From Promicromonosporaceae bacterium (GTDB taxonomy: Bacteria > Actinomycetota > Actinomycetes > Actinomycetales > Cellulomonadaceae): 64,000 nucleotides of DNA. Below the pieces are notes generated by a model, which saw only the letters and a list, made by a program, of their open reading frames with translations, did no database searches and was not told the origin of the DNA. The translations under genes and the position numbers were made by a program. Below are positions 16,738 through 62,580 of this stretch, piece by piece. How positions within the stretch are numbered: position 1 is the first letter of the stretch; the number at the start of each line of letters is the position of its first letter. The stretch covers positions 1 through 64,000 of the forward strand of contig WRHK01000012.1 in assembly GCA_009783295.1 (NCBI GenBank), written 5' to 3'.

Positions 16738-18105
16738 GTGGTTCAGGTGGTGGAGCGCACCCCCGCGCGCTTGCGTGCGGGCGTCGTCGGGCGCCTCGAC
16801 TCGGTGGTGTTCGGGGTGGCGTCGACGGCGCCGTCGTACTCCCTCGCCGTGACCGTGGGGCTGCTGGCCGCCGCCGTAGGTGCCGCGGCGCCGGTGGCGC
16901 TGGCGCTGTCGGCGATCCCGGTCGTGCTCGTCGCCCTGTGCTTCCGTGAGCTGAACCGCGAGCTGCCCGACTGCGGCACCAGCTACGCGTGGGCGCAGCG
17001 GGCCCTCGGGCGGCGCGCGGGCGGGCTGTCGGGCTGGCTCGCCATCGCCGCGTGCCTGCTGGTCATGGCGAACCTCGCCCAGATCAGCGCGCTCTACCTG
17101 TTCGACCTGCTGGGCCTCGACGGCCTCGCCGGCTCGCGGCTCGCGCAGGCGGCGGTCGGGTGCGCGGCCATCGGCGTCATGGCGTGGCTCGCGTACCGCG
17201 GCGTGCAGGTGGCGGCGCGTGTCCAGACGGTGCTCGTCGTCGTCGAGGTCGGGGCCCTGCTGTGGTTCGCGGGCCGGGCGCTCGCGCAGGCCGACCACCT
17301 CGCGGCGCCCACCCTGTCCACAACCGGCGGGACGGGCGGCGTCTCGGGCTGGACCGCGGCGTTCCTGGCCGCCGTGTTCCTCTACTGGGGCTGGGACTCC
17401 AGCTTCTCCACGAACGAGGAGTCGGACGACCCGCGCGAGACGCCCGGCTTCGCCGCGCTGGCCGCCAACGGGGTGCTCGTCGTGCTGTACCTGGTGGTCA
17501 CGTGGGCGGCCGTGAGCTGGGCGGGCACGGACCGGCTCGCCGCCGTCGCCGACGACGACTTCTTCTCCGTCCTGGCCGGCCAGCTCATGGGCACCGTGGG
17601 CGGCAAGGTGCTGGTCGGCGCGGTGCTGGTCTCGGGGCTCGCGTCGGCGCAGACCACGATCCTGCCCACCAGCCGCACGCTGCTCGCGATGGGTCGCGAC
17701 GGCGTGCTGCACCCGCGCCTCGCCGACGTGTCGCCGCGGTACGGCACGCCGTCGGTCGCCACGTGGGCGTTCTCGGGCGCCGCCGCCGTGCTCTACGTGG
17801 TGCTCGTCGGCCTGTCCGACTCCGTGCTCAACGACTCCGTCGCCGCCACGGCCGTCATGGTCGCCGGGTACTACGGGCTCACCGCGTTCGCGACGCTGCG
17901 GTTCCCGTGGTCCGACGGCGCGGCCCGGCGCCCGCTGGCCCGCGTCGTCGTGCCCGCGCTCGCGACGGCCGCGTTCGCCGTGACGCTCGTCGTCTCCCTG
18001 CTCGACATTAGCCCCGTCTCGCTGCTCGTCATCGGCCTGTCGCTCGCCGCGGGGATCCCGGCGCTCGGCCCCACCCGGAAAGCCCTCGTGAAGGAGCCCG
18101 CATGA
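16738..18105 (+). CDS. APC-superfamily amino acid/polyamine permease
   Basis: RLDSVVFGVASTAPSYSLAVTVGLL, FRELNRELPDCGTSYAWAQRALGRRAGGLSGWL, ~12 TM segments; GTG start 16738. Confidence 0.85.
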   Translation: MVQVVERTPARLRAGVVGRLDSVVFGVASTAPSYSLAVTVGLLAAAVGAAAPVALALSAIPVVLVALCFRELNRELPDCGTSYAWAQRALGRRAGGLSGWLAIAACLLVMANLAQISALYLFDLLGLDGLAGSRLAQAAVGCAAIGVMAWLAYRGVQVAARVQTVLVVVEVGALLWFAGRALAQADHLAAPTLSTTGGTGGVSGWTAAFLAAVFLYWGWDSSFSTNEESDDPRETPGFAALAANGVLVVLYLVVTWAAVSWAGTDRLAAVADDDFFSVLAGQLMGTVGGKVLVGAVLVSGLASAQTTILPTSRTLLAMGRDGVLHPRLADVSPRYGTPSVATWAFSGAAAVLYVVLVGLSDSVLNDSVAATAVMVAGYYGLTAFATLRFPWSDGAARRPLARVVVPALATAAFAVTLVVSLLDISPVSLLVIGLSLAAGIPALGPTRKALVKEPA

Positions 18106-52211: not shown

Positions 52212-52400
52212 GTGACGTCCGACGACAAGAGCTCCACCGCCGCGAGCGAGGAGGCCAAGGCGCGGTTCCGTGCAGCGCTCGAGAAGAAGGGCGCCGCACA
52301 GCACCGTCACAACGACGGCCAGCGCAACAGCGGCTCGGTCAAGGGGTCGGAGACCTCGGGTCCCGCCCAGAAGATGTTCCGCCGCAAGAGCGGCGGCTGA
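52212..52400 (+). CDS. DUF5302-family small protein
   Basis: VTSDDKSSTAASEEAKARFRAALEKKGAAQHRHNDGQRNSGSVKGSETSGPAQKMFRRKSGG. Confidence 0.85.
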   Translation: MTSDDKSSTAASEEAKARFRAALEKKGAAQHRHNDGQRNSGSVKGSETSGPAQKMFRRKSGG

Positions 52401-52404
52401 CGGA

Positions 52405-52486
52405 GGTCTCGACAGGCTCGGCCACCGGGGTCGGCTCGGCCAGCGATGGTCGGATCGACCGACGATGGCCGGGCCTGTCGGGTCTC
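52405..52486. repeat. Imperfect inverted repeat between convergent genes (GGTCTCGACAGGCTCGGCC family)
   Basis: GGTCTCGACAGGCTCGGCC (52405-52423) vs GGCCGGGCCTGTCGGGTCTC (52467-52486), mismatches mostly G-U compatible. Confidence 0.7.
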
Positions 52487-53994: not shown

Positions 53995-55821
<1,827 letters not shown>

Positions 55822-60813: not shown

Positions 60814-60915
60814 CGCCCCAGTGTGACCCGCCCGCGCGGCGGTGTCGTGGCCCTGGCAGTCCTACGACACGCGGACGACTCCCTGCGCCGCGGGCGCCGC
60901 CCGAGGGTGGGGGGC

Positions 60916-61653
60916 ATGACATCAGCAACGAAGGTCGCCGTGGTCACCGGTGGTTCGCGCGGCATCGGCCGCGCCGCAGCGGAGAGACTTGCCCGCGAGG
61001 GCTACTCCGTGGTGGTCGGGTTCGCGGGCAACGTCGAGGCGGCGGACGACGCCGTCGCCGCGATCACCGCGGCCGGCGGGACGGCGGTGGCCGTGAAGGG
61101 CGACGTCGGCGACGCGTCGGACGTCGCCGCGCTGTTCGACGCCGCGCAGGACGCGTTCGGCGGCGTCGACGTCGTGGTGCACGCCGCCGGGATCATGCGG
61201 ATCACCCCCCTCGCCGAGTACGACGTCGACGACCTGGACGCCGTGCTGCGCGCCAACGTGCGCGGCACCCTCCTGGTGGCGCAGCAGGCGGCGCGGACGG
61301 TGCGCCCCGGGGGCAGCGTGGTGCTGTTCTCGTCGTCGGTGATCGGCCGCGCGCTTCCCGGGTACGCGGTGTACGCCGCGAGCAAGGGCGCGGTGGAGGC
61401 AGTGCCGTTCATCCTCGCCCACGAGCTGCGCGGGCGGGACGTCACGGTGAACGCGATCGCGCCCGGGCCCACGGCCACCGACCTGTTCCTGGACGGCAAG
61501 ACGCCGGAGCAGCTCGCGTTCTTCGCCGCGGCGTCGCCCCTCGACCGCCTGGGCACCCCGGAGGACATCGCAGAGGTGGTGACGTTCCTGGCCGGCCCGG
61601 CGGGGCACTGGGTCAACGGCCAGGTGCTCCGCGCGAACGGCGGCCTGCACTAG
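60916..61653 (+). CDS. SDR-family oxidoreductase
   Basis: KVAVVTGGSRGIGRAAAERLAREGYSVVVG; YAVYAASKGAVEA. Confidence 0.94.
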   Translation: MTSATKVAVVTGGSRGIGRAAAERLAREGYSVVVGFAGNVEAADDAVAAITAAGGTAVAVKGDVGDASDVAALFDAAQDAFGGVDVVVHAAGIMRITPLAEYDVDDLDAVLRANVRGTLLVAQQAARTVRPGGSVVLFSSSVIGRALPGYAVYAASKGAVEAVPFILAHELRGRDVTVNAIAPGPTATDLFLDGKTPEQLAFFAAASPLDRLGTPEDIAEVVTFLAGPAGHWVNGQVLRANGGLH

Positions 61654-61667
61654 GAAGCCCGCCCCCC

Positions 61668-61820
61668 CGCGAGATACCGCACCGGCCCGCGAGATAGCAC
61701 GTTCGGGCGCGAGATAGAGCGGACCGGCGCGAGATAGAGCCCCGGCCGCTCTATCTCGCGGCCCGGCGCTCTATCTCGCGGCCCGGCGCTCTATCTCGCG
61801 GGGGAAGGCTCTATCTCGCG
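61668..61820. repeat. Symmetric 4+4 inverted array of 13-mer CGCGAGATAGAGC on a 20-bp period
   Basis: Forward units start at 61668, 61688, 61708, 61728; inverted units start at 61748, 61768, 61788, 61808; two-fold symmetric about 61744. Confidence 0.97.
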
Positions 61821-61833
61821 GGGAGGCGGCGGC

Positions 61834-62580
61834 CTAGAGCTCCACCCTGACCCCCGGTCTCGTCGGCATGAGCAGGGCAGCGAGGCCCGCATCCGCGAAC
61901 GCCGCGCGCAGGGTCGCCCCGTCCTGCGTGAAGTGGGCCCATCCGTCCGTGTGCACCGGCAGCACGCGCGGGCGGCCCAGCAGGGCGGCCGCCGCCGCTG
62001 CCTCGGCGCTGGTCAGCGTCAAGAACGCGTCGGCGAGCGGCGTCTTGGCCGCGCCCGCGAAGAGCACCGCGACATCGATCGCGGGGAACCGCGCCGCGAC
62101 CTCGCCCACCAGGCGCAGGGACGCGTTGTCGCCGCTCACGTAGACGGTGGGGGCGCCGTCGGCCTCCAGCACGAACCCCGTGACCGGGCCCGTGAGGTGC
62201 TCGATCCCGTCGGGGCCGTGCTGCGCGGGCACCGCCGTGACGGTCACCGCCCCGACCTGGTGCGCCTGCCACGGCTCCAGCCCGACGGCGGTCGCCTCCA
62301 GCCGCCCGGCCGCCAGCGGCGTCGTCAGCGTGAGCGGCGTCGTGCGCAGCAGCTCGCGGCCGCGGTGGTCGAGGTTGTCGGGGTGCTGGTCGTGCGAGAG
62401 CAGCACGGCGTCGACGGCGCCCACGCGGTCGGGCGTCCACGTCGCGTCGGCGGTCTTGCGCAGCGACCGCGACCCGATGGGGTACTCCTGCGCGTCGTCG
62501 AACGTGGGGTCGACGACGAACCGCACGCCGGCGAGCTCGATCACGACGGTGGGGCCGTCGAGCGGGGTCAGGGAGTTCAT
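61834..62580 (-). CDS. MBL-fold metallo-hydrolase
   Basis: GVRFVVDPTFDDAQEYPIGSRSLRKTADATWTPDRVGAVDAVLLSHDQHPDNLDHRGRELL. Confidence 0.92.
   Translation of the reverse strand: MNSLTPLDGPTVVIELAGVRFVVDPTFDDAQEYPIGSRSLRKTADATWTPDRVGAVDAVLLSHDQHPDNLDHRGRELLRTTPLTLTTPLAAGRLEATAVGLEPWQAHQVGAVTVTAVPAQHGPDGIEHLTGPVTGFVLEADGAPTVYVSGDNASLRLVGEVAARFPAIDVAVLFAGAAKTPLADAFLTLTSAEAAAAAALLGRPRVLPVHTDGWAHFTQDGATLRAAFADAGLAALLMPTRPGVRVEL

Follow-up and report, generated by a model that had tools for sequence, protein, structure and literature searches.

A dispersed family of phased, gene-oriented repeat arrays at gene 3' ends in Cellulomonadaceae, possibly acting as bidirectional transcription-end elements

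Why should the space between two convergent genes hold eight copies of a 13-mer, four forward and then four inverted, in strict phase? The array that raises this question lies at 61668-61820 of the window, which is the whole stretch of 64,000 nucleotides that was analysed, between an SDR-family oxidoreductase gene and an MBL-fold hydrolase gene (Table 1). We could reproduce all coordinates of the 4+4 palindromic array given in the original prediction, including the exact 20-bp period and the 7-bp spacers between the 13-bp units. The SDR transcript reads units 1-4 in sense and the MBL-fold transcript reads units 8-5 in sense. Eleven matches to the motif at ≤2 mismatches were found in the 64-kb window against 3.0 expected, a number reached by 0 of 100 shuffles, and 8 of the 11 were the array units. 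A degenerate inverted motif pair at 55465-55477 (+) and 55506-55518 (-), within a predicted gene at 53995-55821, may be due to chance. The two outermost units on the left are indeed the most degenerate, the other six being exact. The decay at array edges that this had suggested was at most hinted at across the genome, with 0.88 mismatches in outer and 0.64 in inner units (one-sided p = 0.053) and 0.92 in middle ones.

Table 1. The window array and its flanking genes, with the orientation of each unit or gene
Feature	Position	Strand	Description
SDR-family oxidoreductase gene (adh_short_C2)	60823..61653	+	Called by a purpose-written gene finder, start approximate
Unit 1	61668..61680	+	CGCGAGATACCGC, 2 mismatches
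Unit 2	61688..61700	+	CGCGAGATAGCAC, 2 mismatches
Unit 3	61708..61720	+	Exact CGCGAGATAGAGC
Unit 4	61728..61740	+	Exact CGCGAGATAGAGC
Central spacer	61741..61747	.	7 bp, CCCGGCC; holds the two-fold axis (61744)
Unit 5	61748..61760	-	Exact CGCGAGATAGAGC, inverted
Unit 6	61768..61780	-	Exact CGCGAGATAGAGC, inverted
Unit 7	61788..61800	-	Exact CGCGAGATAGAGC, inverted
Unit 8	61808..61820	-	Exact CGCGAGATAGAGC, inverted
MBL-fold hydrolase gene (Lactamase_B_2)	61834..62580	-	Convergent with the SDR gene

Searches of the whole genome and of the family strongly supported the proposal that the array is a dispersed intergenic repeat, and the motif is not unique to the locus. In the genome of the window (G000; 3.98 Mb in 119 contigs), exact matches numbered 95 for CGCGAGATAGAGCC and 70 for GCGAGATAGAGCG, and the pattern CGAGRTAG formed 150 tandem pairs at 19-21 bp. 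Stretches gathered around the matches, which captured about 144 of the 150 exact tandem pairs, yielded a total of approximately 54 arrays and 300 units, or 358 units with degenerate ones counted. These counts are lower bounds since the CGAGRTAG pattern missed a further array of G000, at 17471-17578 of locus L140, which contains the core variants CGAGCTAG and CGAGTTAG. Several contig ends carry arrays, suggesting that these repeats cause breaks in the assembly. Among 200 genomes of the family, 70 contained matches and 50, spanning at least 11 genera, contained at least 10 tandem pairs; some had more than 200. The reversed-pattern control was near zero outside G000, and was uninformative for GCGAGATAGAGCG because this sequence is identical when read backwards. 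Named relatives with the same array were a Cellulosimicrobium MAG and Cellulosimicrobium sp. CUA-896. G000 was the only one of 11 genomes of genus g1 with many arrays, and many genomes of genus g34 and some of genus g35 had none. In other families of the order, we found 36 pairs in G340 and a few in G406 and G227, while genomes outside the order yielded merely one or two chance-like matches each. A search of the accessible literature found no paper with the motif or with an equivalent Actinobacterial family.

The repeat unit consists of an oriented core, CGAGNTAG, extended in the window array to the 13-mer listed in Table 1. The cores of neighbouring units were 0.956 identical in G000 and 0.988 in G103, whereas the spacers, which are fixed in length, were 0.573 and 0.58 identical, respectively. 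Of the near steps between units of the same orientation in G000, 143 of 145 were exactly 20 bp, and 14 further steps were 40 bp; in G103, 229 tandem pairs were spaced by exactly 20 bp as compared to 231 at 19-21 bp. Arrays were located via exact cores, a bias that weighs less on internal slots, where skipped positions, each off by one base, numbered 12 against 218 intact links in G000 and 4 against 93 in G103. Forward-to-inverted centres in G000 were most commonly 21 bp with the remainder scattered, and inverted-to-forward centres were 9 bp in 11 of 13 cases, producing the fused palindrome CTATCTCGCGAGATAG. The period was specific to the genus, being 19 bp in G204, G340, G048 and G067, 20 bp in G000, G064, G079, G103 and G120, and 21 bp in G133 and mostly also in G017. 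The 2+2 form (++--) was common in other genera. Conserved cores and spacing with free spacers accord in part with the earlier suggestion of a DNA-binding or structural element, with a binding factor as the putative reader. In G103, an array at C1:404938-405065 (locus L206) has alternating spacers, that is, a 40-bp higher-order period, indicative of growth by duplication of two units per step.

To place the arrays relative to genes, we called genes with a program that had been trained on the GC content of codon positions and that also recovered the SDR and MBL-fold genes. The arrays of G000 were situated in 34 convergent, 14 tandem and 2 divergent contexts, with 2 more lying within genes and 2 at the ends of contigs. 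Thus, 34 of 50 classifiable arrays were convergent, as compared to 28 convergent, 112 tandem and 30 divergent junctions in an unselected baseline (Fisher p = 1e-11). Arrays in tandem context mostly adjoined the stop of the upstream gene. The neighbours of arrays in divergent promoter regions, inspected by eye, had no family in common, and the idea that such arrays mark a cognate regulator was abandoned. In 12 genomes from several genera, the first unit past the stop codon was in the sense orientation by 147 to 33 (p = 1e-18, a value that overstates independence since the genomes and the repeat copies are related). The TAG of the unit itself served as the stop codon (offset -8) in 34 of 180 cases in the same 12 genomes, and in some g35 genes one unit is translated as AEVV with the stop in the next unit, read as PR*. 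Extrapolating from the baseline junction sample, arrays occupy roughly 6% of the convergent junctions in G000, and are thus not the general terminator.

We also examined orthologous junctions, which were identified by searching relatives with concatenated C-terminal pieces of the flanking genes; the gene names used here (thiC, M13-peptidase, catalase-like, glyoxalase and HemQ) are readings from sequence. A syntenic relative of the window's own SDR/MBL junction was sought, and none was found. Among the thiC genes of g35, those of G103 and G120 end in arrays and that of G158 in one CGAGGTAG stop; those of G044, G112 and G172 have plain stops. Another g35 gene ended in two units in G120 and one unit in the array-free G044. 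At the M13-peptidase, catalase-like and glyoxalase junctions, relatives of G000 that lack the array had either perfect hairpins of 15-22 bp or a different dispersed palindrome, TGGTTGAGCCTGTCGAAACCA, and the HemQ junction of G004 contained a 1+1 CGAGGTAG hairpin. Convergent junctions of G000 that lack arrays were more structured (median z -2.0) than coding (-0.3) and divergent (-0.9) sequences. Since array-free relatives carry an ordinary hairpin at the same junctions, the array would seem to sit in the slot of a bidirectional terminator at several of them. The original prediction of a bidirectional terminator assembled by unit duplication thus agrees with the position of the arrays and with the orthologous slots, with termination itself as a putative role. 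Another convergent junction in the window, at 52400-52484, has an imperfect palindrome of another kind, GGTCTCGACAGGCTCGGCC...GGCCGGGCCTGTCGGGTCTC (fold z -7.6), which resembles a dispersed TGGTTTCGACAGGCTCAACCA palindrome of relatives G001 and G004; a literature search for the latter string found no paper.

Folding of 61654-61833 as RNA gave -133.6 kcal/mol (z -8.6) for the + strand and -139.9 kcal/mol (z -9.2) for the - strand. Two-armed arrays place a stable hairpin directly past the stop codon and single-armed arrays do not. The 13-bp blocks are complementary, as had been noted, but the 7-nt segments between them are not mirrored, GGACCGG facing GCCGGGC and GTTCGGG facing GCCGGGC in the window array. 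Identity between mirrored spacers was 0.445 as compared to 0.364 by chance (p = 0.016), an excess that comes mainly from a small number of short arrays, apparently the products of recent mirror duplication; two such duplications with identical spacers were seen at L093 9016 and L117 10784. Mirrored unit variants in G000 agreed in 19 cells (9.8 in shuffles, p = 0.001) and disagreed in 152. A single arm was present in 12 of 21 arrays sampled from G103, and the sequence downstream of single-armed g35 arrays had neither a complementary arm nor an obvious hairpin. Nor were hairpins enriched 3' of sense arrays in g35 (13% versus 20% after other genes), and we rejected the idea that a hairpin always follows the array. 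No T5/A5 run was found within 30 bp of any G000 array checked, and a search for terminator-like sites found none; hence, these arrays are not classical U-tract terminators. A search of Rfam gave no match above the gathering score, only sub-threshold microRNA-type matches to the long hairpin. With mirrored spacers only slightly above chance and the signal coming mainly from few short arrays, a continuous RNA hairpin under selection was discarded. Because mirrored spacers are mostly non-complementary and most of the sampled G103 arrays are single-armed, the palindrome is mostly two gene-oriented arms that face each other and not one selected long hairpin.

Copies of the repeat were also found in frame inside genes, namely in nadB (L127 2523-2544), in a gene for a MutM-like protein (L219 2503-2569) and in one for a probable acyltransferase (L130 2504-2545), where they lengthen a linker or a terminus by about 10-30 residues; in the MutM-like gene, G067 has a degenerate copy at the same linker. 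The family is thus able to insert or to be copied. Mobilisation by a RAYT was rejected since no gene for a Y1_Tnp (PF01797) transposase was detected in G000; matches to this domain were obtained in 2 of the 200 family genomes and in 5 control genomes. Similar DNA was not found in phage, plasmid and viral collections, and an origin from such elements was also rejected. Larger dispersed elements adjoin or separate array arms at L174, L175, L178 and L179 in G133 and at L206, L208 and L299 in G120/G103. They have long inverted repeats (the 24-bp GGGGTGGGTGGTGGTGCCGCGTC in G133 and GGTGTCGGGTCCCGTGCACGGTCG in G103/G120), and both are often preceded by GCCYGACGGCG directly past the array (5 of 22 and 5 of 51 runs, with 0.2-0.3 expected), possibly indicative of a composite mobile element.

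Could such a family have accumulated without any benefit to the host? A selfish or neutral repeat that has spread, been eliminated from coding and promoter sequences and persisted at gene ends is a credible explanation, although we consider it rather unlikely. It would account for the patchy presence, the in-frame insertions into three genes, the duplications in G103, both tandem and of 40-bp higher order, and the recent mirror duplications. Neutral decay, however, would hit cores and spacers alike, whereas cores are 96-99% identical and spacers 57-58% with almost no change in length, and tolerance alone fails to predict the sense bias. We also think it unlikely that the arrays are plain intrinsic-type hairpin terminators that arose by duplication of units and work without a sequence-specific factor, the core being maintained by pairing and recency. 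The fold energy, the convergent position, the hairpins in the same slot of relatives and the excess of mirrored changes to the same variant over shuffles all fit with this. Yet uncompensated mirrored differences far outnumber the compensated ones, the spacers are unmirrored in most arrays, and within-array pairing has no need for a core that is common to several genera and families of the order. A hairpin alone leaves the single arms, the uncompensated mirrors and the cross-genus core without an explanation.

Two further explanations were given lower probabilities. That the arrays are 3'-UTR sites on the sense strand of the RNA, bound by a protein involved in protecting or processing the ends of mRNAs, is improbable; the sense bias, the closeness to the stop codon and the single sense arms are as expected, but two-armed arrays would sequester the sense sites in a duplex and no candidate protein was found. 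More improbable still is a BIME-like supercoiling or nucleoid site, in which gyrase, a topoisomerase or a nucleoid protein binds phased units where positive supercoils accumulate through convergent transcription. Such a site would suit the convergent position, the strict phase and the approximately two helical turns per unit, but does not predict single sense arms at tandem genes, and with periods of 19, 20 or 21 bp depending on genus the exact helical phase is not shared.

The nearest functional parallel is the paired DNA uptake sequences that act as terminators in Neisseria and Pasteurellaceae (Kingsford et al. 2007, PMC1852404). In that study, inverted pairs are enriched at tail-to-tail regions with a preference for the +- orientation, few are divergent or intragenic, and close pairs of the same orientation are rare. 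The arrays are similarly built from a short dispersed motif with inverted pairs in the +- orientation between convergent genes, but unlike the paired sequences described there they form long same-orientation tandem runs with a fixed period and no T-tail. A reading of the motif as an uptake sequence was rejected. Such a sequence has hundreds to thousands of copies, some of them single or intragenic. Inside genes, 184 kb of unselected sequence contained no copy of the 8-mer core in sense, and the 13 antisense 8-mers there may be chance. Single sense copies are thus not scattered as in uptake sequences, and the copies are concentrated in arrays. REPs are mainly located between convergent and co-directional genes near stop codons, and no Actinobacteria are mentioned among the GTAG-tagged REP families (PMC3733652). 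Like REP, BIME and REPIN sequences, the arrays are extragenic palindromic elements dispersed in dozens per genome, with clusters and mirrored dimers, and they share with REPs a TAG/GTAG in the core, a high copy number and a location at convergent and tandem gene ends. They differ in that a REP is a 20-40-bp palindromic unit with an unpaired GTAG or CGTC tag, whereas the 13-mer is oriented, forms no stem-loop by itself and finds its complement between whole arms, in a genome without a Y1 transposase. As with Rickettsia palindromic elements, a few copies lie in frame in coding regions, but nearly all are at gene ends and are phased rather than single palindromes. Compared by repeat layout, CRISPRs also combine a conserved repeat with a variable spacer of constant length, but have repeats in one orientation and unique spacers of 25-40 bp, whereas the arrays invert at the centre, have spacers of 7 bp here and 7-12 bp across arrays, and place their units at dozens of gene ends.

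Our best reading is that the arrays constitute a dispersed family that resembles REPs but has no RAYT transposase, and that would function as a transcription-end element. For the window array, membership of this gene-3'-end family combined with a bidirectional transcription-end role and a phased core read by a factor has, in our estimate, about an even chance of being correct; the array probably helps to stop transcription from both sides. Each arm is a run of oriented, phased sites in sense for the adjoining gene, and two convergent genes with a sense arm each thus yield the mirrored 4+4 form. RNA polymerase arriving from either gene would meet the sense arm and then the complementary arm, and every inverted unit that emerges could pair with whichever sense unit is free, so that several 13-bp hairpins would form one after another, none with a U-tract. 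A factor would further recognise the phased core, either in the DNA or in the RNA, which we propose because core and spacing are conserved while spacers are not and because single-armed arrays exist. Counted against the transcription-end reading are the lack of U-tracts, the single arms without a hairpin, the small share of convergent junctions occupied and the several relatives in the same genus that have no arrays.

A bolder version, which we regard as doubtful, is that a polar sequence-specific factor on phased CGAGNTAG arrays past stop codons halts RNA polymerase from one side throughout the lineage, with the period set by the version of the factor in each genus and with palindromes as two facing polar terminators. 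This would be a bacterial counterpart of protein-dependent terminator boxes. In eukaryotes, Sal boxes at gene 3' ends are bound by TTF-I and terminate transcription by RNA polymerase I. Like these, the arrays are oriented, repeated sites just past the transcribed unit, a likeness of architecture with no evidence of homology.

The repeat family bears on how high-GC Actinobacteria may end transcripts without U-tracts. Orientation, spacing and natural pairs of presence and absence at the same junctions open termination, and a possible cognate factor, to direct testing. The family is also an example of REP-like repeats that proliferate without a RAYT transposase.
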